A DNA stretch of 64,000 nucleotides from SAR324 cluster bacterium. Its GTDB lineage: Bacteria > SAR324 > XYD2-FULL-50-16. The stretch is taken from the NCBI GenBank assembly GCA_028282885.1, contig JANQGX010000009.1, forward strand, positions 18,177-82,176. Direction: 5' to 3'. Both the position numbers and the translations under genes were made by a program. The notes under the pieces were generated by a model. It was not told the origin of the DNA. It did no database searches and saw only the letters and a program-made list of their open reading frames with translations. Positions 48,608 to 63,503 of the stretch are shown here, piece after piece (position 1 is the first letter of the stretch; every line of letters starts with the position of its first letter).

Positions 48608-49198
48608 ATGCCGTTGAAAGACAATTATTGTTACAGAATTCGAAACAGTCTTTACCTTAACCTGACCAACCGCTGTTCCAACAATTGCGATTTTTGTATT
48701 CAGCATTATACCGATGGTCTGGCGGGAAGTCGTCTGGTTTTAAGCAGAGAGCCCGGTCTGGAAGATGTGATCGGCTCCATCCAATCCCATCTTTCACAGG
48801 TCAGTGAGGTTGTTTTCTGTGGTTTTGGCGAACCCACCTACAGGCTTGCTTTGATTATAGAGACCTGTCAGTGGTTGTGTCGGAATTTCGCCGGCAAAAT
48901 CCGATTGAACACAAATGGTTTAGGGAATCTGATTCAGGGAAAGAGAATAATAGAACCATTATCGGGATTAATCGATCGCATTAATATCAGCTTGAATGCG
49001 ACCGGTCCGGAAGAATATGAGGAAATCTGTCATCCAAGCTTTGGAGAAGATTCTTACCCCTCTATTTTAGAATTTATCAAGCAAGCGAAAGCTGAAATAT
49101 CCCGGGTGACCATCAGCGCTGTTACGGCTTCCGGGGTTGACATGGACCGTATGGAGGAGATTGCAGAGGAACTTGGTGTTGGTTTTGTAGTACGCTGA
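48608..49198 (+). CDS. Small radical SAM protein (similar to TatD-associated radical SAM family)
   Basis: YLNLTNRCSNNCDFCIQHYTDG (CX3CX2C), VVFCGFGEPTYRL, RLNTNGLGNL, INISLNATGPEEYEEICHP. Confidence 0.87.
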   Translation: MPLKDNYCYRIRNSLYLNLTNRCSNNCDFCIQHYTDGLAGSRLVLSREPGLEDVIGSIQSHLSQVSEVVFCGFGEPTYRLALIIETCQWLCRNFAGKIRLNTNGLGNLIQGKRIIEPLSGLIDRINISLNATGPEEYEEICHPSFGEDSYPSILEFIKQAKAEISRVTISAVTASGVDMDRMEEIAEELGVGFVVR

Positions 49199-49373: not shown

Positions 49374-52300
49374 ATGGAATACATCGCGGATCTGCACATT
49401 CATTCTCCTTATTCACGGGCTACCAGTAAAAATTGTGATGTTCCCGGACTTTTTGCCTGGGCCAGGGTAAAAGGGATTCACATTGTGGGAACGGGAGATT
49501 TTACCCATCCCGCCTGGTTTGCCCGGTTAAAAGAGACGTTGGAACCTGCCGAACCCGGGTTGTTCCGATTAAAAGACGAAAATACCCCGCCTGCGCTGGC
49601 GAATACCGAAACAGAAGCTATACCTGTCCGATTCATGTTGAGTTCGGAAATCAGTTGTATTTATAAAAAAGGAGATAAAACCCGTAAGATCCATGCGGTG
49701 TTGTATGTTCCGGATATGGAATCGGTGGAAAGGATCAACGGTCGTCTGGCTGCCATAGGAAATATCGAGTCGGATGGCCGTCCGATACTAGGGCTGGACG
49801 TTAAAAACCTGCTGGAAATTCTTCTGGAATCCTCGGCGGAAGGATTTATGGTGCCGGCACATATCTGGACGCCCTGGTTTTCGCTGTTTGGTTCAAAATC
49901 GGGATTCGATGCCGTTGAGGAGTGTTTTGAAGACCTGACTGAGCACATTTTTGCCCTGGAGACAGGTCTCTCCTCCGATCCGGAGATGAACCGCATGATA
50001 TCGGCCCTTGATCGGTATACCTTGATCTCCAATTCCGACTGTCATTCTCCTTCAAAACTGGGAAGGGAAGCCAACCTTTTCAATACGGAGTTCGATTATT
50101 TCGCACTCAGAGACGCTCTCAAACAGAAAACACCGGATGGATTCCGGGGAACCATTGAGTTTTATCCTGAAGAGGGAAAATATCACTACGACGGCCATCG
50201 CAAATGTAATGTCTGTCTCGACCCCCAGGAGACCAGGGAGAAGGAAGGGCTTTGCCCGGTTTGCGGCAGACCGTTAACCATCGGCGTGATGCATCGGGTG
50301 ATGGAACTGGCCGACAGGGATAAACCACAATATCCCGATGGGCAGGAGTACTTTGAAAGCCTGGTCCCATTGCCGGAGATTCTGGGAGAGATGCTACAGG
50401 TTGGCCCGACTTCGAAAAAGGTGATGGAGCAATACCGGAGGGCCATCTCGCTGTTTGGTTCCGAATTCAACCTTTTTCGGCAGGTCCCAATTGAAGAGAT
50501 CAACCGGGGATACTCACCATTGCTGGGGGAGGCTGTCAGACGTTTGCGTCATGGTGAAGTTATCCGTCAACCGGGCTTTGATGGCGAATTCGGAGTGATT
50601 CGGGTTTTTGAACAAAACGAGGTCCACCGATTTTCCGGGCAGATGAGTTTTATGCCGGATAACCCTGTTTCTGATGATCCAAAACCAGCCCCGGAAAGGC
50701 AGTTCAGACTGGAGAAGTCGGATTGCCGGAACAGAAAATTACAAGGCACCGAAGTAATGCCTGAAGGACCGAACCCGGAACAACAAGCCGCCATCCAGAG
50801 CAGGGCAGATAAGATATTGGTGTCGGCCGGCCCCGGAACCGGGAAAACCTTTACCCTGGTTTCCCGAATTGTCAATATGGTTAAGGAGCATCAGGAGCCA
50901 CCCGACCGGTTTGTGATCATCACCTTTACCAATCGCGCAGCCAATGAAGTCCGAGAGCGCCTGGAAAAAGAGATTGGTGAGAATGCGGATCGGTTATTTG
51001 TCGGTACCTTTCACGGTTTCTGTCTGGAACTGCTTAGAAGAGAAATATCCGGTTTGAAGGTGGTTGGGCAGGATGATAGAAGTATGATCTTGAAAGATCT
51101 GATTCCGGGTATCAGTAAACAAGAACTGGGCAGGATCGGTGAGCAGATTGGCAGGTGCTTTGAAACCGGTGACAGCGTTGCCGAATCAATTGAATATGAA
51201 GATTTGAAGGATCACCTGGATGCCTATCGGCAGCATTTGCAGGAAAGGTCAGCTATTGATATCGATGCGATTGTGCCTGAGGTAGTAAACAGACTGGGAG
51301 ACAATCTCGAATTCAGAAAAGGTGTAGCCAAGCGCGTTTCTCACCTGTTTATAGATGAGTTCCAGGATCTCAACGAATCGCAGTATCGCCTGATACGCGT
51401 GTTAGCTGAGGAAGCCTCTGTATTTGCCATTGGTGATCCCAATCAGGCCATCTACGGTTTCAGAGGGAGCGATTCCAAGTACTTTTTCCGGTTTACCCGG
51501 GAATTCCAGGTTGAAACCTTCGCCCTGAAGCGCAACTATCGTTCCTCCTCCGTCATTCTAAAGGCAGCGACGGCGGTTATTAAAAACAACAGCACAGCGG
51601 CGGAATCGTCGCTTGAACCACAAAAAGAAGAAAGTTCAAAGCTGGAGTATCATCTTCATTCAACTGTTTCAGCCGAAGCCGAGTTCATTGCCCGCAAAAT
51701 CGATGCTTTGGTGGGAGGAATCCGCCAGTTATCAATCTTTGAACAAACAGGAAATGCCGAGACACAGGGCATCGATTTGGGATTCCGGAATATTGCCGTC
51801 CTTTATCGCTTATCGGATCAGGCGCAGGAAATTGCCAGGGCTTTAGACAAAGCAGGAATTCCCTACCAGTTGATCGGGGCCCGACCGTTTTTTATGACAA
51901 AGGAGCTTAAACCCTTTTATCACTGGATTCGTTTTACAGGTGCGAATGAAAGAGACGATTTCCTCCAATTTCTGAATTATCTCCCGGGAACCGGGAAAAG
52001 CACCATCCAACAATTGGAAACAACACTGCCCGGACAGGATGAATTCCGGTTGCACGAACTTTCCACCAGTCTGTTTTCCGCCAAAATCGAAGGTGTTCTG
52101 CAGGACTTGAAAAGCAGCTTTCTCGAATTTCAGAAAAAAACAGAAAACAGCGGAATTGCAGAGGCTGTTCGCGGAATGATGGCTTTTCTGAAAAAAGATC
52201 CGACGTCCGGGGATAGCGTTCGCTTTCTGGAACTGTGTGGTATCTTCGGTAAAAACCTGCCGGCCCTTTCTGAACATCTTTATCAGAACGCACAGGCGAC

Positions 52301-52649
52301 CATTTATGATGATCGTGCCGAAGCTGTTCCCCTAATGACCCTTCACGCCGCCAAAGGGTTGGAATTCCCCGTTGTTTTCATTGCCGGATTGGAAGAACAG
52401 ATACTGCCGTGTGATTTACCCGGACTGCCGGGTGACCTCGAAGAGGAAAGAAGACTGTTTTACGTCGGTCTGACACGTGCCCAAAACAAGTTGTTCCTAA
52501 CTGCCGCGAAGAACCGAACCATCTTCGGCAAAAGTTTCGATCAGTTGGAATCACGCTTCCTGAAAGAAATCCCCAAAGAAATACTAATCCGCCATTACCC
52601 GCAAAAACCCCAACCCGAAATCTCCACCGGAGAACAGCTCAGTTTTTAA
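49374..52649 (+). CDS. Fusion of EndoQ-like PHP nuclease domain (TIGR00375 type) to UvrD/Rep-family helicase
   Basis: N-terminus MEYIADLHIHSPYSRATSKNCDVPGLFAWARVKGIHIVGTGDFTHPAWF with zinc motif CNVCLDPQETREKEGLCPVCGRPLTIGV; C-terminal helicase GPGTGKTFTLVSRIV, DEFQDLNESQYRL, GDPNQAIYGFRGSDSKYF, LTLHAAKGLEFPVVFIAGLEE-type motifs. Confidence 0.92.
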   Translation: MEYIADLHIHSPYSRATSKNCDVPGLFAWARVKGIHIVGTGDFTHPAWFARLKETLEPAEPGLFRLKDENTPPALANTETEAIPVRFMLSSEISCIYKKGDKTRKIHAVLYVPDMESVERINGRLAAIGNIESDGRPILGLDVKNLLEILLESSAEGFMVPAHIWTPWFSLFGSKSGFDAVEECFEDLTEHIFALETGLSSDPEMNRMISALDRYTLISNSDCHSPSKLGREANLFNTEFDYFALRDALKQKTPDGFRGTIEFYPEEGKYHYDGHRKCNVCLDPQETREKEGLCPVCGRPLTIGVMHRVMELADRDKPQYPDGQEYFESLVPLPEILGEMLQVGPTSKKVMEQYRRAISLFGSEFNLFRQVPIEEINRGYSPLLGEAVRRLRHGEVIRQPGFDGEFGVIRVFEQNEVHRFSGQMSFMPDNPVSDDPKPAPERQFRLEKSDCRNRKLQGTEVMPEGPNPEQQAAIQSRADKILVSAGPGTGKTFTLVSRIVNMVKEHQEPPDRFVIITFTNRAANEVRERLEKEIGENADRLFVGTFHGFCLELLRREISGLKVVGQDDRSMILKDLIPGISKQELGRIGEQIGRCFETGDSVAESIEYEDLKDHLDAYRQHLQERSAIDIDAIVPEVVNRLGDNLEFRKGVAKRVSHLFIDEFQDLNESQYRLIRVLAEEASVFAIGDPNQAIYGFRGSDSKYFFRFTREFQVETFALKRNYRSSSVILKAATAVIKNNSTAAESSLEPQKEESSKLEYHLHSTVSAEAEFIARKIDALVGGIRQLSIFEQTGNAETQGIDLGFRNIAVLYRLSDQAQEIARALDKAGIPYQLIGARPFFMTKELKPFYHWIRFTGANERDDFLQFLNYLPGTGKSTIQQLETTLPGQDEFRLHELSTSLFSAKIEGVLQDLKSSFLEFQKKTENSGIAEAVRGMMAFLKKDPTSGDSVRFLELCGIFGKNLPALSEHLYQNAQATIYDDRAEAVPLMTLHAAKGLEFPVVFIAGLEEQILPCDLPGLPGDLEEERRLFYVGLTRAQNKLFLTAAKNRTIFGKSFDQLESRFLKEIPKEILIRHYPQKPQPEISTGEQLSF

Positions 52650-53137: not shown

Positions 53138-54292
53138 ATGAAAATTACTGCAGTAAAGTCGTTTCCGGTTTTTCCGGGTTGGCGCAAAAATTTGATTTTT
53201 GTGAAGATTGAGACCGATGCCGGTATTAATGGATGGGGCGAAGTGTATACACAGTACGATCGAGATCCGGCCATGAGTTCTCATGTTGAGATTCTTGGTA
53301 AATACTTAATCGGCAGAGATCCTTTTCAGATCAAATATTTTACCACGATGGCCTATGATGATTATGCCCAGCGTCGCGGATCACTTGAGTTTTATTGCGC
53401 GTTATCGGGGTTAGAGGCGGCTCTCTGGGATATTGTCGGTAAAGCTTGTGAGCAACCCGTCTACAATCTTTTGGGTGGGCCGTGTCGGGATAAAATAAGG
53501 GTTTATGCCAACGGCTGGAGCTACAAGAAGCATGAACCCGACGATTTTGCTCGCGCTGCCGAAGAAACCGTAGCGTTAGGTTATACTGCCCTGAAATTTG
53601 ATCCGTTGCCCCGACCTTGGAGAACTTACATTCCGCGTGAGCATGAAAAGCACGCTGAAAAAGTTGTCAAGGCCGTTAGAGACGCAGTTGGCCCTGATGT
53701 CGATCTGTTAATAGAACTGCATCGGCGTCTGTCTGTTAGTCATGCTGTTACTTTGGCTGAAAGGCTGGCTCCGTACGAACCCTTCCTGATTGAGGAACCT
53801 TGTCAGGCAGAGAATATCATTGCCATTGCCGAGGTCCGGTCAAAGACGCATGTTCCGATCATGACCGGGGAAAATATTTTCAGCAAATCGGGATTCAGGA
53901 GGGTTTTTGATCACAGGGCTGCGGATTATATCAACGCTGATGTTGCCAATTGCGGCGGTATCTTGGAATTGGTGGAAATTGCGGCAATGGCGGAACCTTA
54001 TTTTGTTGGTGTGTCGCCCCATAACTATAACTCGACTTCTTTGGCCCTTGCAGCCACCGTTCATGCGTCGGCTGTTATGCAAAATTTCATTATTACCGAA
54101 TACTTTGTCCCGTTTGAAGAGTTTTGCAACGGTTTGTTTCCCGGACAACAAATGAAACCGGTAAATGGTTACATTACGTTGCCCGATAAGCCCGGTTTAG
54201 GCTTAGAACCGGATGAGCAAGCCCTTTTAGCTCATCCCGGTAAGCCCTTTCCGCTTAGAAATCTGCCTTACCCAAAAGATGAAGTGATGTAA
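53138..54292 (+). CDS. Enolase superfamily (mandelate racemase/muconate lactonizing enzyme-like) protein, sugar acid dehydratase-like
   Basis: MKITAVKSFPVFPGWRKNLIFVKIETDAGINGWGEVYT...ALSGLEAALWDIVGKACEQPVYNLLGG...LLIELHRRLSVSHAVTLAERLAPYEPFLIEEP...GVSPHNYNSTS. Confidence 0.9.
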   Translation: MKITAVKSFPVFPGWRKNLIFVKIETDAGINGWGEVYTQYDRDPAMSSHVEILGKYLIGRDPFQIKYFTTMAYDDYAQRRGSLEFYCALSGLEAALWDIVGKACEQPVYNLLGGPCRDKIRVYANGWSYKKHEPDDFARAAEETVALGYTALKFDPLPRPWRTYIPREHEKHAEKVVKAVRDAVGPDVDLLIELHRRLSVSHAVTLAERLAPYEPFLIEEPCQAENIIAIAEVRSKTHVPIMTGENIFSKSGFRRVFDHRAADYINADVANCGGILELVEIAAMAEPYFVGVSPHNYNSTSLALAATVHASAVMQNFIITEYFVPFEEFCNGLFPGQQMKPVNGYITLPDKPGLGLEPDEQALLAHPGKPFPLRNLPYPKDEVM

Positions 54293-54359
54293 CTGCTGAT
54301 TTTCTTGATTTCGAAAGGCCGGAATAATTGTGAGATAACTCAACGATAGGAGAAAAATA

Positions 54360-54824
54360 GTGATTAAGAACAAGGAAATCCTAGGTGGAATAATATTTTT
54401 TTCTCTCAGTCTCTACCTGTTTTACGAAACAAGCAATTTTTCTTCAACTACTGAACGGTACCGTTCGTTGGGTCCAGCGGTCTTCCCCTACGTACTGGCA
54501 ATCTGTCTGGGTTTGCTGAGTATCGTTCTTTTTATTCAAGGAGTCAGGTCTCCCAAAGCGGAACTGTTTTCTTTTTCGATGAAAACAAAAGCGTCGGTTC
54601 AGGTACTTTCATTGATAGCGATGCTGTTTGTTTTCCTGATTTGGGTTGAGAAAATAGGTTTCATCATCTGGAGTTTATCTTTTATGTTTCTTGGGCAAAT
54701 CATTTTAGGCGAACGCCGTTTGGTAACGGCGATGGTGCTGTCAATTGCAGTGGTCGGGATAATTTACCTTATTTTTGGCTTTCTGCTGAATGTTCCGCTT
54801 TCAAGTGGTTTCTTGTCTTACTGA
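54360..54824 (+). CDS. Tripartite tricarboxylate transporter TctB-family protein
   Basis: 4-TM 154-aa protein, YRSLGPAVFPYVLAICLGLLSIVLFIQG; GTG or alternative start; upstream of TctA. Confidence 0.85.
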   Translation: MIKNKEILGGIIFFSLSLYLFYETSNFSSTTERYRSLGPAVFPYVLAICLGLLSIVLFIQGVRSPKAELFSFSMKTKASVQVLSLIAMLFVFLIWVEKIGFIIWSLSFMFLGQIILGERRLVTAMVLSIAVVGIIYLIFGFLLNVPLSSGFLSY

Positions 54825-54848
54825 ATTTACCTTTTGCCTGAGGTGCCT

Positions 54849-56348
54849 ATGGATCTTTTTCTTACCGGTCTCATCTCAATTTTGCATCCAAAGATGCTTT
54901 TTTTTATTTTTGGCGGTACCTTTATCGGAATCACGCTTGGTGCTCTGCCGGGACTTAGCGCAACTATGGGAGTCGCGATTCTGCTTCCTGTTACTTTTTA
55001 TCTGCCTCCCGAACAAGGGATGCTTATTCTCCTGGGAGTCTATGTTGGAGGCATTTACGGCGGTTCGATTGCAGCGATTCTCTTGAATATCCCAGGTTGT
55101 CCTGCATCTTTGATGACCACATTGGACGGCTATCCGATGACTAAAAAAGGGCAGGGTGGACGGGCAATCGGAATTGCCACTACGTCTTCCTTTGTTGGCG
55201 GCGTAATAGGGGTGTTGGCTCTTATTTTCGTGGCTCCGTTTTTGGCCCAAGCAGCCCTTAGTTTTGGTCCTGCCGAATATGCCATGCTGGCCTTTCTGGG
55301 ACTGTCGGCGATCGTTATTGTCGCCGCAAAATCGATTGTAAAAGGATTTATCGGCGTTGTTATCGGACTGTTGATGGCAACTGTGGGAATGGATCCTATT
55401 GTTTCCGTGCCGCGATTCACCTACGGCAGCATCGATTTGATGTCGGGAATAAGCTATATACCGGTGGTAATTGGACTCTTTGGGTTGAGTGAAGTGATGG
55501 TCCAGACACTGCAGATGAAACAGTTGAAAGCCGTACGTCAGACAATCGGTCAGGTATTCCCGAATCTGGCGGATTTTAAAAAAATTTTTAGACATTTTTT
55601 CCATCCCGCCTGGATTGGTACTCTTATCGGTGCATTGCCCGGTGCAGGTGCGTCTATATCTGCCATTATATCGTACAATCGGGCGGTCCAAGCATCAAAA
55701 AAGCCGGATGAGTTCGGCTCCGGAATTCCGGAAGGACTGATCTCCTGTGAAACGGCTAATAATGCTTCAATCGGTGGAGCTTTGGTCCCTCTTCTTACCC
55801 TTGGTATTCCCGGAAGCGCTGTAACAGCTGTTTTATTGGGAGCATTGATGATGCATGATATCACACCGGGACCACTCTTGTTTGTACAGCAACCGGGTCT
55901 GGTTTATACCATTTTCGCGGGTTTGTTGATGGCTAATCTGGCAATGTTGATTTTGGGTCTGGCCGGCGGCAAAGTATTTCCCCGTATAGTCAATTTGAAG
56001 CAATCCGCCCTGCTGCCGTCAATTATCGTCTTGTGCTCGGTTGGTGCCTTTGCCATCAATAACAGTATGTTTGAAGTCGGGATTATGTTTGTCTGCGGAA
56101 TCGGCGGTTTTTTTCTTCGTGAATTGGCCATTTCCCCAGGGCCGATTATTCTGGGTCTTATCTTGGGACCTATTGCAGAATCTAATTTTCGGGGAGCGCT
56201 TGAGTTATCCAGAGGGAGTTTGTTGATATTTGTTCAAAAACCGATATCGTTGATCATTCTGATCGTAACGATATCTTTGCTGCTATCCCCGTTCCTGAGG
56301 GGTTGGCTTCTTAAAACAAAAAGTGGCTTAAGCGCCGGGAAGGCTTAA
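54849..56348 (+). CDS. Tripartite tricarboxylate transporter permease TctA
   Basis: GTFIGITLGALPGLSATMGVAILLPVTFYLPPEQGMLILLGVYVGGIYGGSIAAILLNIPGCPAS; ATG at 54849 preferred over 54834. Confidence 0.95.
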   Translation: MDLFLTGLISILHPKMLFFIFGGTFIGITLGALPGLSATMGVAILLPVTFYLPPEQGMLILLGVYVGGIYGGSIAAILLNIPGCPASLMTTLDGYPMTKKGQGGRAIGIATTSSFVGGVIGVLALIFVAPFLAQAALSFGPAEYAMLAFLGLSAIVIVAAKSIVKGFIGVVIGLLMATVGMDPIVSVPRFTYGSIDLMSGISYIPVVIGLFGLSEVMVQTLQMKQLKAVRQTIGQVFPNLADFKKIFRHFFHPAWIGTLIGALPGAGASISAIISYNRAVQASKKPDEFGSGIPEGLISCETANNASIGGALVPLLTLGIPGSAVTAVLLGALMMHDITPGPLLFVQQPGLVYTIFAGLLMANLAMLILGLAGGKVFPRIVNLKQSALLPSIIVLCSVGAFAINNSMFEVGIMFVCGIGGFFLRELAISPGPIILGLILGPIAESNFRGALELSRGSLLIFVQKPISLIILIVTISLLLSPFLRGWLLKTKSGLSAGKA

Positions 56349-56429
56349 CAACATTGAGAAGAGCCTTAGCCCTGTGTTTGCGCTTGGAACTGAACCCTAT
56401 CAAATCTGATGTAAAAAAGGAGGTGCAAA

Positions 56430-57413
56430 ATGTCATCAAGAAAATTTAGAGGACTGTTTACATTCTTAGTCGTGGTAACGATTATGATTACAGCGCCAAT
56501 TGTTTGCGCGCAAAAGAAGTTTCCGAACAAACCGATTCAGTTTATTGTCGGTTGGGGTGCCGGAGGCGGATCGGATTTATCGGTCAGATTTCTGACCAGT
56601 CATACGGAAAAACATCTCGGAAAACCGATTAACGTTCGTAACATGTCCGGCGGTTCCGGTGCCAAGGCTTATATGTACATCTCAAAATCCAAACCGGACG
56701 GTTATACGATCGGCAATACAACAAGCACGATTTCCACTCATAGATTTATGGGAAATATTCCTCTGGGATCGAATGATTTCGAGCCGATTATTGCGTTCAA
56801 CGAGGATCCGGGCGGGGTGTGGGTGGCCACTGATGCTCCCTGGAAAACACTTGCCGAGTTTGTTAACCATGCGAAATCAAGGCCCGGCGAGGCAACGATC
56901 GCTGCTTCCAATCCTGGGTCTATCACTCGTTTTCAGATGATGGCTTTGGAACAGGAAGCCGGAATCGAGTTTAATGTTTTATCGCAAAAAGGTGGTGCCG
57001 GTCCGGGTTTGGTTGCTTTGGCCGGAGGGCATGTCAATGCTGCAATGGGAACTCCTCTTGAAGGTTTCTCTCTTTACAGCGCAGGTAAAATCAGACCGCT
57101 GGGTTTCATGAGCGCAAAACGTGTTGCTAAGTATGAGGATGTTCCAACCATGAAAGAACAGGGATACCCCTTGGTAATCAGCACAAATCGTATGATTATC
57201 GCGCCGAAAGGTACTCCTGCAGACCGCGTTGATACGCTTTATCAAGCTTTTCTAAAGGCTGTGCACACCCCGGCATACCAAAACGCTTTGGAGAGCAAGG
57301 GTTCGACCTGGCTTGATTGGAGTCCCGAGAAATGTAAGGAGTATTTAAAACGACAGGATGCAATTTTTGAAAAGATCATCAAAAAGGCCGGACTCTATCG
57401 GCCCATAAATTAA
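56430..57413 (+). CDS. Tripartite tricarboxylate transporter substrate-binding protein (TctC/Bug)
   Basis: FPNKPIQFIVGWGAGGGSDLSVRFLTSHTEKHLGKPINVRNMSGGSGAKAYMYISKSKPDGYTIG. Confidence 0.95.
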   Translation: MSSRKFRGLFTFLVVVTIMITAPIVCAQKKFPNKPIQFIVGWGAGGGSDLSVRFLTSHTEKHLGKPINVRNMSGGSGAKAYMYISKSKPDGYTIGNTTSTISTHRFMGNIPLGSNDFEPIIAFNEDPGGVWVATDAPWKTLAEFVNHAKSRPGEATIAASNPGSITRFQMMALEQEAGIEFNVLSQKGGAGPGLVALAGGHVNAAMGTPLEGFSLYSAGKIRPLGFMSAKRVAKYEDVPTMKEQGYPLVISTNRMIIAPKGTPADRVDTLYQAFLKAVHTPAYQNALESKGSTWLDWSPEKCKEYLKRQDAIFEKIIKKAGLYRPIN

Positions 57414-57428
57414 TTGATTGGAGAAAGC

Positions 57429-58673
57429 ATGATGAAAAACGGATACAATCCTGCGCTTTTGAGGTTGGAGTTGTTGGCGCAGGGCATAAAGGTTGATCCC
57501 GAATTCAACCAGCAACTTGGCACAGGATTAAAGGAGCCGCTATGGACAAGGACAGGTCCCACCAGCACTGGTATAGATTTGATGCTCGAAAAAGGAATGT
57601 ACTGTAGTCCGGCCATAGAAGGGGAACGTTTCCCTTATCACTACAAGAACTCACCGTTTTTATTGGGTGTGGATGATTCCGGCCAGGGAGTGATTAAAAA
57701 AAATGGAGAGACTATTCAAAAAGTAAAACCATTCCCAAGACCAAGCTTTTACGGTAAAAAAACAAGCAGTGGCAACCTTATGGAAAAAATCGGGGTCGTT
57801 ACCGGTGATTTTTTGGCTATTGCCATCGACAATCGTTGCTGGTTTTGGGGGTACTATCGTGAAGACGAGCTGATTAATTACAAGGAAAGACAGTGTAAAT
57901 TCTGCGGCATCGGGTTGAGTATGAAACGCGATGAGTTGTATCGCAAGAGTAAAGAGGACATACTTGAGGTGGTCGGAGCAGCGGTTGAAGGCGGGGATGC
58001 AAAACACATCGGTATCAACGCGGGTACTATGTCTCCCCCTGGAAGAGGACATGAGGAATACGCCGAGATTGTTTCGGCGATCAAAGATCGCTACGACGTT
58101 TGGATCAGATTATCTATCTGTCCGCCGGAAAAAGAAAAGTACATCGATACTCTCTACGATGCAGGTGCCGATCAGATCGGATATGATATTGAAGTCTATG
58201 ATCCCCGAAAATACGAATATATTTGTCCTGGGAAACTTCATGAAGTGGATCGGGATGTGCCACATCAGCATTTTTTCCGTATGTTGGAATATGCCGCCAA
58301 ACGAGGCGGACCCAACAAAGCATATTCGATCCTGGTGACCGGTCTGGAATCAAGAGAGACGACAGTACAGGGAATAGAAGAGCTTTGTAAGCGTGGAGTT
58401 GTACCTCGCATGGGCATATTCCGCCCGATTCCGGGCACACACCTGGAGAAACACCCAACGCCGAATCCAGGTTATCTTGTGTATATTTACCGCAAATTAC
58501 GAGAACTAACCATGAAGTATGGGGTGGACTCCGGATGCTCCGGCTGTGGCCGGACGTTTGTCGGTACCAAAGAGTATGACGGGGTGAACCCGATCATGCC
58601 GGAAATCACAGATGAGGATTTGGAAATTGCCAAGGTTGATATAAACCAACCGGATGCTTCGGAAATTTCGTGA
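57429..58673 (+). CDS. Radical SAM-like TIM-barrel protein with non-canonical Cys motif
   Basis: NRCWFWGYYREDELINYKERQCKFCGIGLS (CX18CX2C); downstream VEGGDAKHIGINAGT, ADQIGYDIEVYDPRKYEYICPGK, VPRMGIFRPIPGTHLEK typical of BioB/elongator-like rSAM barrels; C-terminal GCSGCG. Confidence 0.8.
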   Translation: MMKNGYNPALLRLELLAQGIKVDPEFNQQLGTGLKEPLWTRTGPTSTGIDLMLEKGMYCSPAIEGERFPYHYKNSPFLLGVDDSGQGVIKKNGETIQKVKPFPRPSFYGKKTSSGNLMEKIGVVTGDFLAIAIDNRCWFWGYYREDELINYKERQCKFCGIGLSMKRDELYRKSKEDILEVVGAAVEGGDAKHIGINAGTMSPPGRGHEEYAEIVSAIKDRYDVWIRLSICPPEKEKYIDTLYDAGADQIGYDIEVYDPRKYEYICPGKLHEVDRDVPHQHFFRMLEYAAKRGGPNKAYSILVTGLESRETTVQGIEELCKRGVVPRMGIFRPIPGTHLEKHPTPNPGYLVYIYRKLRELTMKYGVDSGCSGCGRTFVGTKEYDGVNPIMPEITDEDLEIAKVDINQPDASEIS

Positions 58674-58832
58674 TTATACCTCCTGCGATGAGGCGGGGCA
58701 CGGAATTCAGGAATCCAGTGCCTCTGCCATCTTACGCCGGAACTCTTGCTGCCGAGTGCCTGTCTTTTCAGATGATGACGGCAATGATCGCTATGCGGGG
58801 AATTTTTTAACTATTTGGTTAATGAGCCTGTT

Positions 58833-58869
58833 GAATTTATTTTTTCGTGATAATCGAAAAAATAAATTC
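58833..58869. terminator. Terminator-like hairpin downstream of the radical SAM gene
   Basis: GAATTTATTTTTTCG / CGAAAAAATAAATTC 15-bp perfect arms, 7-nt loop. Confidence 0.5.
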
Positions 58870-58928
58870 TATAATATCAGAATAGCGAACACTGCATTTT
58901 TGCCAAATTAGGGATAAATCAACAGACT

Positions 58929-58947
58929 CGTTAATATCGGATTAACG
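58929..58947. promoter_or_regulatory. Palindrome overlapping the VOC gene start
   Basis: CGTTAAT-ATCGG-ATTAACG, 7-bp perfect arms, last base is the first base of the GTG start. Confidence 0.35.
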
Positions 58948-59330
58948 TGAACACATTCAAATTGAATCACCTGCACATTGTTTGTAGTGATTTGCAAAAC
59001 ATGGTGCGTTTTTGGACCGAAGGCGTAGGAGCGGATTTGATATGTTTCCGTACTTTCGGAAATGCCGACGGAGCGGTTCTTAGTTTGGACGGTTTGCGGA
59101 TCAGTCTACGCCTGCCGAAAGAAAATGAACAGGTGTGGGAAAGACGACAAAATTCTTTCGGTTATGATCATTTGGGCCTGGAAGTCAACGACCTTGATGA
59201 TGCATGCAACCACTTGGCTGATTTTGCATGTAAAATCGATTCCGGTCCTTTTAAACGAGAGGGCCGAAAAACCGTGTTTTTAAAAGGTCCGGACAACGTT
59301 GTTCTGGAATTAATGCAAATTGATTTTTGA
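58947..59330 (+). CDS. VOC (glyoxalase/bleomycin resistance) superfamily protein
   Basis: FKLNHLHIVCSDLQNMVRFWTEGVGADLI...YDHLGLEVNDLDDACNHLADFACKIDSGPFKREGRKTVFLKGPDNVVLELMQ; GTG start. Confidence 0.92.
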   Translation: MNTFKLNHLHIVCSDLQNMVRFWTEGVGADLICFRTFGNADGAVLSLDGLRISLRLPKENEQVWERRQNSFGYDHLGLEVNDLDDACNHLADFACKIDSGPFKREGRKTVFLKGPDNVVLELMQIDF

Positions 59331-59612
59331 GTGCTCAGTTTTCCAGTTTCTTTCAAGCAAAGGTTTTTGACTTGAAAACAGTTTGTAAAAAAGTGAAAAT
59401 ACATTAAAACAGTATGTTAGAAAAAACCATTTTAAGACTTTTCGGAGTGAATTCAATCATTATATTCTCTTAAGGCAGTTGTAGCCGAGTAATGTCCATG
59501 TTTTGAAGAAAGAGCATACTTGGCATTTTAATGTTTCGCCTTTTGACGAAGAAGTGATCATATCGTCACGGTAGTGCGATCAAACAAATGCCTGACTGAA
59601 TAGGAGAAAAAT

Positions 59613-60374
59613 ATGAACTTCCAGAAGATCCAAGCTAAAAAAAAGAGCCAGTTGGCAGCCGAAATGCTTATGGATGTTATAAAAAAGAACAAGTTTAAAT
59701 CGGGTGATAAGCTGCCTCCAGAGAGAATAATGGCCAGCGAGATGGGTATGAGTCGTAATACACTGAGGGAGGCTATAGCTGCGCTTCAGATTCTGGGAAT
59801 CATTGAAGTCCGTCATAGTCAGGGTAACTTTGTTGTAAATCTGAATGAGACGATAAGTCTAAGTTCCACGCTGGAGGCAATTTTCTCCTCAAATGACGAT
59901 CCCTTTCTGGTTATTGACGCCCGAATCGCATTTGAACCGGGCGCAGCCGCTTTAGCATGCCAGGTGGCTACCGACAAGGATCTTGAAGAAATTGAGTTGA
60001 ACATGAAGCAGTTGATTAACGGCATTGAAGAAAACAACCTGGTTAGATACTCACAGGCCGATCATGATTTTCATATGAAAATTGCCATATGTACGGATAA
60101 CCCGATAATTATTCAAACCATGCAACATATTATCAAAGTGTTGAAGCAACCCCTGTGGCGTTCCATGAAACAGAGCTTAGCAATGCGCAGCGAAATAAGA
60201 GACGCTCGTGTTGAAGAGCATCAAGCTATCTACAGAGGTCTGGTCGATCGAGATGCTTCCCGGGTTTCAAACAGTCTGCTCACACATCTCAAGCACTCCA
60301 AAAAACGACTGACGTTAGAAATAGAACATGCGGAAACCGCTGCCGATTCAGCCAACGGACGAAATGGATCATAA
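59613..60374 (+). CDS. GntR-family transcriptional regulator, FadR/FCD subfamily
   Basis: GDKLPPERIMASEMGMSRNTLREAIAALQILGIIEVRHSQGNFVV wHTH plus FCD residues DHDFHMKIAICTDNP. Confidence 0.92.
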   Translation: MNFQKIQAKKKSQLAAEMLMDVIKKNKFKSGDKLPPERIMASEMGMSRNTLREAIAALQILGIIEVRHSQGNFVVNLNETISLSSTLEAIFSSNDDPFLVIDARIAFEPGAAALACQVATDKDLEEIELNMKQLINGIEENNLVRYSQADHDFHMKIAICTDNPIIIQTMQHIIKVLKQPLWRSMKQSLAMRSEIRDARVEEHQAIYRGLVDRDASRVSNSLLTHLKHSKKRLTLEIEHAETAADSANGRNGS

Positions 60375-61735
60375 TGAATCCGAATGAAACTGAAGACAGA
60401 TATCTAAGTGAAAAACTGGTCAGCAACCTGGGTCATATTCGCCGGGAATCCCTGCCGGAAGAGGTCATTGAAAAGACAAAGGCCTGTTGGCTGGATTTTT
60501 TGGCCGCCTGCTTCAGCGCTGCCGACTCAAAAGCTGAGAGAACCGCATTTTGGGTGGCCCGGAAAATGGGATTCGGAACCGCACCGTTTATTGGTCGGAG
60601 TTACACGGGCAATGGCCTGGCCTCCGCATTTTATAACGGAATTCTTGCCCATATCCAAGAATTAGACGATTCCCATCGGTACGTATCCGGATTACATCTT
60701 GGTGCAGTTGTATTTCCTGCGGTTTTAGCGTTAGCCAAAGAAGTCAAGTTCACTGGTGAAGAATTCATTCGGGCCGTTGCCTGCGGTTACCAGGGAGCTG
60801 CTCTTGTCTGTCGCTGCTTGGATCAGGGGCATCGGCGTCGGGGGTTTCACAGTACCGGAACGATCGGGCCTTTTGGTAGTTGCATCGGCGCTGGAACTGT
60901 TCTGGGTTTGAATGGCAAGCTATTGGTCGAAGCTATCGGCATCGTCGGATCTGCCGGGGCGGGCTTGTTCGCTTTTCTTGAGGAGGGCGCGACGGTCAAA
61001 CACTTTCATACCGGTCGGGCCGCTTTGGATGGACTGTTGGCCGCATTGCTGGCTAAAGGCGGAATGACCGGACCGAAAGCGGTTTTTGAAGCCAAAGAAG
61101 GTTTCTTCAAGGCTTATGCCGATGAGTTTGACGACGGGCCTTTAAAAAACCCTCCCTCAGATTACGAAATTCTGAATGTATACCATAAAATTCATTCCGC
61201 CTGTGGGCATTCTTTCCCTGCTATAGATGCGGCCTTGGATCTAAAGGAGGAAATTAAAAATCCGGATACGATTGAAAGCGTAGAAATAAAAACCTACCGC
61301 GCCGCGTCTGTTTTAACGAACTCACAGCCTCAATCCGTTCAAGAAGCACGTTTTTCAATACCTTTTCTGGTGGGGCTTGCCCTGGTCAAAGGTCAGGTCG
61401 GGAAAAAAGACATTACCGGTGAAAGACTAAAGGATCGAAGAGTAATGGAAATTGCCGCCCGGGTAAAAGTTATGGAAGATTTTGAGTTGCAGGAAAGCTT
61501 TCCCCGGATGCGAGCCGGTATCTTGCAGGTGACATTGAAAGACGGAAAGGAAATCATCAAACGAGTAGATTCCCCTCGCGGAATGCCGGAAAATCCGATT
61601 TCTTTGAGTGAAATTGTGGAAAAATTCAACTCTGAAGCTGCTCATATGGACCCGAAAGTTCGTCGTCTGATTATTGAAAAATCGATGAAAATGGAAAAGC
61701 TTGTATCAATAACCGAACTAACAGGGCTTCTATAA
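60374..61735 (+). CDS. MmgE/PrpD family protein
   Basis: ACWLDFLAACFSAADSKAERTAFWVARKMG...FYNGILAHIQELDDSHRYVSGLHLGAVVFPAVLALA...YQGAALVCRCL...RRGFHSTGTIGPFGSCIGAG. Confidence 0.93.
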   Translation: MNPNETEDRYLSEKLVSNLGHIRRESLPEEVIEKTKACWLDFLAACFSAADSKAERTAFWVARKMGFGTAPFIGRSYTGNGLASAFYNGILAHIQELDDSHRYVSGLHLGAVVFPAVLALAKEVKFTGEEFIRAVACGYQGAALVCRCLDQGHRRRGFHSTGTIGPFGSCIGAGTVLGLNGKLLVEAIGIVGSAGAGLFAFLEEGATVKHFHTGRAALDGLLAALLAKGGMTGPKAVFEAKEGFFKAYADEFDDGPLKNPPSDYEILNVYHKIHSACGHSFPAIDAALDLKEEIKNPDTIESVEIKTYRAASVLTNSQPQSVQEARFSIPFLVGLALVKGQVGKKDITGERLKDRRVMEIAARVKVMEDFELQESFPRMRAGILQVTLKDGKEIIKRVDSPRGMPENPISLSEIVEKFNSEAAHMDPKVRRLIIEKSMKMEKLVSITELTGLL

Positions 61736-61752
61736 CCGTTACCGAAACAGCT

Positions 61753-62652
61753 ATGGATTTAATTATGGATATCTCTTTTATAGGTTTTGGCGGGGCAGCA
61801 TACGGCTTGACCAAGGGACTCAAACAAGAAGGATTTGGGAATGTTTACTTTTTTGACAAATCGTATAAAAGTAAAAAGTTTGGAGAAATCGTCCGCAAAA
61901 GAGCGAGCGAGACCGGGGCGCTTTATGAAGAAAATATCGAAGATCTGGTTAATTCCTCTGACATGGTAATATCCTGTGTCACCGGTTCAATGGCGGTGAC
62001 CGTTGCACGCGAAGCAGCGCCTTTTCTAAAATCCGGTCAGCTTTATGTGGATGTGAATACAACGTCTCCGGCTGTAAAGGAGTTAGCAGCCGCGATTGTT
62101 GAAAAATCGGGAGCGGAGTACGCAGATGCGGCCATGATGGGCGGTATTCCGACCTGGCTACACCGCGTACCGATTTTTTCCTCGGGAAAGGGGGCAGAGC
62201 GATTCAAAACAACGATGGAACCATTTGGAATGCGGATAAACGTTCTCAGCAAAAAGCCCGGACAGGCGACCGCTATCAAAATGTTTCGCAGCATTTTCAT
62301 GAAAGGGATACTGGCTCTTTTTTTAGAAGTAATGGAAGCCGCCGATCACTACCAGGCAACGGATCTTGTTTTGGGATCAATAGCCGAGACAATGGACAAA
62401 ACATCGTTTTTGGAAACCGCCCGTCTGATCGTAACCAAGGGCGTCGTTAACGCAGATCGAATGGCTCATGAAATGGCAGGGGTGATTGAAACGATTGAAG
62501 CGGCAGATGCTTTATCAATCATGTCAATGGCTACTCGTGATCGACTTCAGTGGTGTCGACAATTGAATCTGCAGGAATTTTTCGGAGGTGAAATTCCCAA
62601 GTCCCTGGAGGAAGTGTTGAAAGCATTGAAAGAAAAGATATCGCAATCTTAA
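61753..62652 (+). CDS. NAD(P)-dependent 6-phosphogluconate dehydrogenase-like protein (DUF1932-type C-terminus)
   Basis: DISFIGFGGAAYGLTKGLKQEGFGNVYFFDKS...QLYVDVNTTSPAVKELAAAIVEKSGAEYADAAMMGGIP...KKPGQATAIKMFRSIFMKGILALFLEVMEAAD. Confidence 0.88.
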   Translation: MDLIMDISFIGFGGAAYGLTKGLKQEGFGNVYFFDKSYKSKKFGEIVRKRASETGALYEENIEDLVNSSDMVISCVTGSMAVTVAREAAPFLKSGQLYVDVNTTSPAVKELAAAIVEKSGAEYADAAMMGGIPTWLHRVPIFSSGKGAERFKTTMEPFGMRINVLSKKPGQATAIKMFRSIFMKGILALFLEVMEAADHYQATDLVLGSIAETMDKTSFLETARLIVTKGVVNADRMAHEMAGVIETIEAADALSIMSMATRDRLQWCRQLNLQEFFGGEIPKSLEEVLKALKEKISQS

Positions 62653-63101: not shown

Positions 63102-63503
63102 CTAGTCTTCCCATACTCGTTCTACAGCTTGGTAGAGATCGAATTTTTTATCAGAACTCAATATCTTAAGATCTTCGGAGATTGCTGTGGCAATAAGATA
63201 ACGATCAAATGGGTCCTTATGATTCTCCATAACATCAAGAGATTGATAACAAAGGATGTGAGAGTTTTGAACCGGTATTGTTTCGATGCCGACCTGTTGC
63301 GACTGGAAGACGACGTTCTGTAGTCCGATGGGGATGTGTAACTTACCAATATTGATCTTGATCGCCATTTCCCAAAAAGACATCTGGCTTACAAATATCT
63401 GTACATCCGGATCTTTGTATATTTCCAAGGCTTTTTTCCCAATTTGATCATCATCACCGCACCCCAGATAAATCAAAACATGAGTATCAAGAAGATATTT
63501 CAT
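63102..63503 (-). CDS. PIN-domain toxin (VapC-like)
   Basis: MKYLLDTHVLIYLGCGDDDQIGKKALEI...FWEMAIKINIGKL...HKDPFDRYLIATAISEDLKILSSDKKF. Confidence 0.9.
   Translation of the reverse strand: MKYLLDTHVLIYLGCGDDDQIGKKALEIYKDPDVQIFVSQMSFWEMAIKINIGKLHIPIGLQNVVFQSQQVGIETIPVQNSHILCYQSLDVMENHKDPFDRYLIATAISEDLKILSSDKKFDLYQAVERVWED

Follow-up and report, generated by a model that had tools for sequence, protein, structure and literature searches.

A putative carboxylate catabolic locus of anaerobes carrying an uncharacterised clade of a variant radical SAM family

The window analysed here is a stretch of 64,000 nucleotides from a SAR324 cluster bacterium (contig JANQGX010000009.1, positions 18,177 to 82,176). 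At 53138–62652 it carries a locus of nine genes, which encode, among others, a variant radical SAM protein (rSAM), an enolase-superfamily enzyme (ENO), a tripartite tricarboxylate transporter (TTT; TctABC), an FCD-type GntR regulator, an MmgE/PrpD-family enzyme (PrpD) and a 6PGDH-like dehydrogenase with a DUF1932 domain. The locus is most likely one copy of a rare mobile gene set, present in at least five anaerobe genomes of two phyla, for the import and breakdown of an organic acid. It is best described as a TTT-linked carboxylate catabolic locus with an uncharacterised clade of a named radical SAM family, the name being a generic one given by NCBIfam, which lists no reaction for the family.

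A radical SAM clade with a displaced cysteine

The rSAM matches the NCBIfam family NF045502 (variant_rSAM) with 212.1 bits over residues 12–368 (cut-off 125). The canonical radical SAM motif CX3CX2C is incomplete in this protein: Lys157 occupies the position of the first cysteine, while C161 and C164 are present (residues are counted from TTG 57414). The Pfam Radical_SAM match (43 bits) starts past the first cysteine of the motif. An alignment of 11 NF045502-family proteins takes in the window rSAM with four close homologues, and six remoter members: four MSMEG_0568-type proteins of sulfate reducers, L011 as an intermediate, and a true Nit1C protein from Rhizobium. In it, C142, C161 and C164 are invariant and a C-terminal CxxC pair, Cys375 and Cys378, is near-invariant. 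The cluster cysteines are spaced as C-x18-C-x2-C in the window's clade and as C-x8/9-C-x2-C in the distant relatives; the combined pattern, C-x(8-18)-C-x2-C, is deduced in this analysis and does not come from the NCBIfam entry. Because Cys142, Cys161 and Cys164 are invariant and the canonical first cysteine is missing, the rSAM can be assigned, on sequence grounds, to a radical SAM family with a displaced cysteine; the window's clade is distinguished by a longer loop. A preliminary description of the locus, made from the DNA letters, had called the enzyme non-canonical, and the displaced cysteine bears this out. The better start of the gene is ATG 57429, which has GGAGAAAGC (GGAG) just upstream and agrees with the N-termini of the homologues, rather than TTG 57414, the start in a mechanical list of open reading frames.

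The same family contains TIGR04043 (MSMEG_0568), the NitD protein of Nit1C clusters. The rSAM shares with it the three invariant cluster cysteines and the C-terminal cysteine pair, but differs from it in sequence (23–34% identity to NF045502 members outside its clade, compared with 71–83% inside the five-member clade), in score (135.2 bits, with a cut-off of 303.7) and in the length of the loop (x18 instead of x8–9). None of the Nit1C neighbours (nitrilase, GNAT, MSMEG_0570/0572) is seen within the locus of the window or within the four other loci described below; in locus L059 these neighbours do stand beside a true MSMEG_0568. A Nit1C variant was rejected on the TIGR04043 score and on the neighbours. 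For NitD itself, no reaction is described in a study of cyanide-assimilation (Nit1C) clusters (PMC11049912).

An intermediate NF045502 member (L011/L053, genome G197), 32% identical to the rSAM and with C-x9-C-x2-C spacing, adjoins a TPR-like gene. A distant homologue of the variant family is found on Klebsiella plasmids, in 371 records of a plasmid collection. The window also encodes a canonical radical SAM protein (TIGR04038, TatD-linked type; 48608–49198) about 8 kb upstream of the rSAM.

A conserved neighbourhood in five loci

When 85,462 species genomes were scanned, with sensitivity to close relatives only, three close relatives of the rSAM emerged, in metagenome-assembled genomes of a Desulfovibrionaceae member from mouse gut (locus L002, 82% identical to the window's), a Desulfobacterales member (L003, 75%) and a Desulfobacteraceae member (L004, 74%). 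A profile search of the 390 genomes of the L004 class added a single protein (genome G241, L010/L052; 79%), and in that search the E-value drops from 4e-262 to 4e-56 at the next match. The latter, L011 of G197, was set aside because it lies in an island that is unrelated and holds a large restriction/helicase-like gene. No further member of the clade was found in the class and family of L002, in the order of L003 or among 52 genomes of the window's own phylum, and no rSAM relative was found in viral contigs. Judged by these searches, the clade is rare.

In all five loci the rSAM, ENO, FCD regulator and PrpD lie in one block (the PrpD of L052 is a C-terminal stub at the contig end). TctABC is present in four of them, the contig of L052 ending before the transporter could be seen, and so is the DUF1932 dehydrogenase (window, L002, L003 and L052). 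The ENO beside each rSAM is 66–84% identical to that of the window; the FCD homologues are 39–47% identical. At E<1e-200, the L004 class has ENO matches in two genomes, exactly those that also have an rSAM match at this level. Since four other loci link the same rSAM with ENO, PrpD and FCD, the linkage is, on this comparison, more than chance.

Gene order and strand vary among the five loci, and the transporters belong to two subfamilies. TctA of the window is 64% identical to that of L002 and 32–34% identical to those of L003 and L004; for TctA and TctC, respectively, identities are 64 and 54% within the window/L002 pair, 81 and 62% within the L003/L004 pair, and 32–34 and 22–25% between the pairs. 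Thus, the TTT transporter is kept even though its lineage is swapped, and the linkage outlasts rearrangement. The preliminary description had named co-occurrence in other genomes as the check on the locus, and its gene partners pass this check with the exception of the VOC protein. The latter has no tblastn match in L002, L003, L004 or L052 and was rejected as a core part, being a neighbour in the window alone.

Two of the loci are larger than that of the window. L003 and L004 both have extra genes for an IlvD/EDD dehydratase, a multi-domain rhodanese and an M29-like protein, and L003 further contains ComA-like, Ldh_2 and aminotransferase genes. The L004 block also has a second MR/MLE enolase-superfamily gene (L089:6635–7768) alongside the rSAM-linked one. 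Some bacteria use TTT transporters and Ldh_2 enzymes for sulfolactate. The ComA-like, L-sulfolactate-dehydrogenase-like (Ldh_2) and rhodanese genes of L003, which are in line with the locus, and the rhodanese of L004 could therefore mean that the substrate in some loci is an organosulfur acid (of the sulfosugar acid or sulfolactate type) and not a plain sugar acid. This is quite improbable: the L003 ComA and Ldh_2 proteins score far under the NCBIfam cut-offs (133 vs 280 and 204 vs 500 bits), both are found in L003 alone, and neither they nor the rhodanese have a match in L002 or L052.

Horizontal transfer of the locus

In the ENO tree, the proteins of the window and L002 are sisters with support of 100/100, and the two genomes apparently come from different phyla. 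Furthermore, rSAM and ENO are missing in both same-genus genomes (G046 and G047). These relationships suggest that the locus arrived by transfer, probably as a block. The contig itself is native, because the adjoining PHP-helicase gene at 49374 has an N-terminal part that is 65–66% conserved in both same-genus genomes. This gene (49374–52649) encodes a 1091-residue fusion of a PHP-type phosphoesterase-like and a UvrD-type helicase part, and its long match in the same-genus genomes covers the N-terminal ~420 residues only. Just downstream of the locus, the minus strand encodes a PIN-domain protein (63102–63503; VapC-like, by eye).

A catabolic core that occurs without the rSAM

ENO is a predicted acid-sugar or hydroxy-acid dehydratase. 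Its metal ligands and His base (E/D193-x-H195, E219/E220, E245 and H295) are present in all seven aligned relatives. The best curated match is to D-gluconate/D-galactonate dehydratases (GalD/GlucD), with which ENO shares the E/D-x-H, Glu, Glu, His pattern, but it scores 276 bits against glucon_galact_dh (NF040790) where the cut-off is 750 and represents a separate subfamily. A reading of the locus as a gluconate or galactonate pathway that includes a radical step was discarded, since ENO is far under those cut-offs. In the tree, the five ENOs that accompany an rSAM form one group, with support of only 68/53 against the ENO of G002. Other ENO relatives without an rSAM, ~47–49% identical, are found in G408 and G266; their surroundings (L087 and L088) contain, by eye, MttB-like (trimethylamine-methyltransferase), aldehyde ferredoxin oxidoreductase (AOR)-like and other genes and give no clue to a substrate.

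An operon on Azospirillum plasmids has the order ENO-RraA/CHA-TctC-RraA-DUF1932-TctB-TctA, with neither rSAM nor PrpD, and a Shinella plasmid operon is similar to it except that TctABC is absent; the annotation names no substrate for either. Both resemble the locus in ENO (45–52% identity) and DUF1932 (28–37%), and the Azospirillum operon also in TctABC, but they have RraA-type (RraA/CHA-aldolase-like) proteins and oxidative enzymes and lack rSAM and PrpD. Because ENO, DUF1932 and TctABC sit together without an rSAM in Azospirillum, ENO, the DUF1932 dehydrogenase and a TTT form a recurring catabolic core, with rSAM and PrpD marking, as far as these sequences go, the version found in sulfate-reducer-type and window genomes. 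The rSAM looks like an anaerobe-specific addition to this core. To regard the locus as built around this enzyme is thus an overstatement, since ENOs with 60–66% identity and the Azospirillum combination exist without it. An RraA-family-like protein is encoded in the window at 849–1619, ~52 kb off the locus; it is 27–29% identical to the RraA/CHA-aldolase proteins of Azospirillum and Shinella.

These operons, together with the ENO relatives that have no rSAM, raise the question of whether the locus is an ordinary catabolic operon (ENO, TctABC, DUF1932 and PrpD) in which the rSAM is a passenger with a job unrelated to carboxylates; the VOC gene is an example of a neighbour that drifted in. Such a passenger is unlikely, given that five of the five known clade rSAMs adjoin this ENO and PrpD despite reordering and inter-phylum transfer, and that few genes of the set are as conserved as the rSAM.

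In the open-access literature searched, no characterised operon combining an rSAM with TTT, MR/MLE and MmgE proteins was found, in agreement with the earlier statement that no characterised pathway with this combination was known, and no match to the TTT plus RraA operon was found either. A Synergistota fluoroacetate operon with an rSAM (PMC10838667) is unrelated, being a glycine-reductase-type system.

Organisation of the locus

All nine genes named in the preliminary description lie where it had placed them, and every one exceeds its Pfam cut-off (Table 1). ENO, TctB, TctA, TctC and rSAM are closely packed, as are FCD, PrpD and DUF1932; the stop codon of FCD and the start of PrpD overlap at 60374. 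The VOC gene is isolated by a gap of ~270–280 bp on each side, so the locus probably consists of at least two units; of the single + strand run described earlier, the common strand stands and the single run probably does not. Promoter and terminator signals at the locus show no excess over shuffled sequence, and no Rfam elements or informative repeats were found.

Table 1. Genes of the locus, with positions in the window
Gene product	Position	Strand	Supporting match
ENO, enolase-superfamily (MR/MLE) enzyme, D-gluconate/D-galactonate-dehydratase-like	53138..54292	+	Pfam MR_MLE_C 202.8 bits and MR_MLE_N
TctB, small membrane subunit of the tripartite tricarboxylate transporter	54360..54824	+	Pfam TctB 66.8 bits
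TctA, large membrane subunit	54834..56348	+	Pfam TctA 499.5 bits
TctC, periplasmic carboxylate-binding protein	56430..57413	+	Pfam TctC 136 bits
Variant radical SAM protein (rSAM), NF045502, motif C-x18-C-x2-C	57429..58673	+	NF045502 212 bits; Pfam Radical_SAM
VOC-family protein	58947..59330	+	Pfam Glyoxalase_4
FCD-type GntR regulator, probable local regulator	59613..60374	+	Pfam GntR and FCD
MmgE/PrpD-family enzyme (PrpD)	60374..61735	+	Pfam MmgE_PrpD N 175.7 bits, C 138.3 bits
6PGDH-like / DUF1932 NAD(P)-dependent dehydrogenase	61753..62652	+	Pfam NAD_binding_2 and DUF1932

Proposed pathway and the role of the rSAM

PrpD contains both MmgE/PrpD Pfam domains, and in four loci it retains His, Glu and Lys at the site, defined in PMC12290011, that characterised enzymes share for a four-carbon dicarboxylate substructure. 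It resembles characterised MmgE/PrpD enzymes (2-methylcitrate dehydratase, cis-aconitate decarboxylase, IDS epimerase and methylsuccinate isomerase) in these residues and in full-length matches to 7bra and 2hp3, but it scores at most ~43 bits against the 2-methylcitrate dehydratase/PrpD equivalogs, whose cut-offs are 458–950, so that no known activity is assignable to it. The nearest solved structures of the DUF1932 dehydrogenase are 3qsg, 4ezb and 1i36. The transporter has all three subunits of a TTT (TctA, TctB and TctC), with two separate subfamilies serving the five loci; the nearest solved relatives of TctC include 4x9t and the terephthalate-binding TBP.

ENO, the PrpD residues, TctC and the 6PGDH-like dehydrogenase point to an imported hydroxylated dicarboxylate, or to a compound that is turned into one. 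With about even confidence, the locus can be read as a catabolic module that spreads horizontally among anaerobes and handles one specific polyhydroxylated carboxylate, or a few such acids; the substrate is probably a dicarboxylate. The import and degradation of a carboxylate, as proposed earlier, fits the protein families and the conserved active-site residues; the substrate, the individual reactions and their order are what we infer from them. The FCD-GntR regulator would sense the acid, which TctC would capture and TctBA import. ENO would dehydrate a 2,3-dihydroxy acid, yielding a 2-oxo-3-deoxy acid, while oxidation or reduction of a beta-hydroxy acid intermediate would fall to the DUF1932 dehydrogenase. 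PrpD would be a dehydratase, epimerase or decarboxylase that acts via an enolate on a succinate-type (four-carbon dicarboxylate) intermediate. The rSAM would convert either the substrate or an intermediate by radical chemistry (epimerisation, isomerisation, dehydration or C-C cleavage), a step that would replace the chemistry done by RraA/CHA-aldolase-type and oxidative enzymes in the related operons of aerobes.

Of the possible roles of the rSAM, this radical conversion is preferred, ahead of maturation of a partner enzyme and of the less likely passenger. That the protein with the C-x18-C-x2-C motif acts directly on the imported hydroxy-carboxylate, in an undescribed anaerobic degradation pathway, is less likely than not. 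Several observations weigh against the module reading as a whole. ENOs 66% (G002) and 60% (G010) identical to the window's occur without an rSAM in the window's own phylum, and the Azospirillum and Shinella operons, which manage without one, leave its role in degradation unforced. PrpD, FCD and DUF1932 are 33–65% identical across loci, compared with 65–84% for rSAM and ENO, so they may have been recruited separately or be under looser constraint. The substrate may differ between loci because L003 and L004 carry the IlvD, rhodanese and M29-like genes. Finally, the AlphaFold model of the rSAM (mean pLDDT of 62, pTM of 0.73) is poor exactly in the cysteine-bearing loop.

In a Foldseek search, the structures nearest to this low-confidence model are lipoyl synthase, NifB and biotin synthase (TIM barrel). 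Binding of a [4Fe-4S] cluster and SAM cleavage are predictions backed only indirectly, by the Pfam score and the TIM-barrel matches. The same matches could indicate that the rSAM is a maturase or sulfur-inserting enzyme for a protein or cofactor of an anaerobic pathway, like lipoyl synthase, HydE or NifB. Its best profile neighbours outside its own family are HydE and LipS2, the C375/C378 pair could carry a second cluster, and the rhodaneses of L003 and L004 could provide sulfur. However, the five loci have no dedicated target protein in common beyond ordinary enzymes, the rhodanese is without a match in L002 and L052, and the model suggests fold similarities that are generic for radical SAM barrels. 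Maturation therefore seems rather doubtful, and a radical step on the substrate or on an intermediate is kept as the working proposal.

Significance

Radical SAM enzymes are familiar mainly from biosynthesis, cofactor assembly and RNA or peptide modification. An rSAM clade tied in every known case to carboxylate uptake and degradation would be unusual, and it is testable. The NF045502/MSMEG_0568 family is widespread via Nit1C clusters, and its chemistry can be approached practically through a catabolic setting in which the candidate substrates are few. If the rSAM does act directly on a hydroxy-carboxylate, this would be the first reaction assigned to the NF045502/MSMEG_0568 superfamily. The locus also points to a carbon source whose use has moved between phyla of anaerobes.

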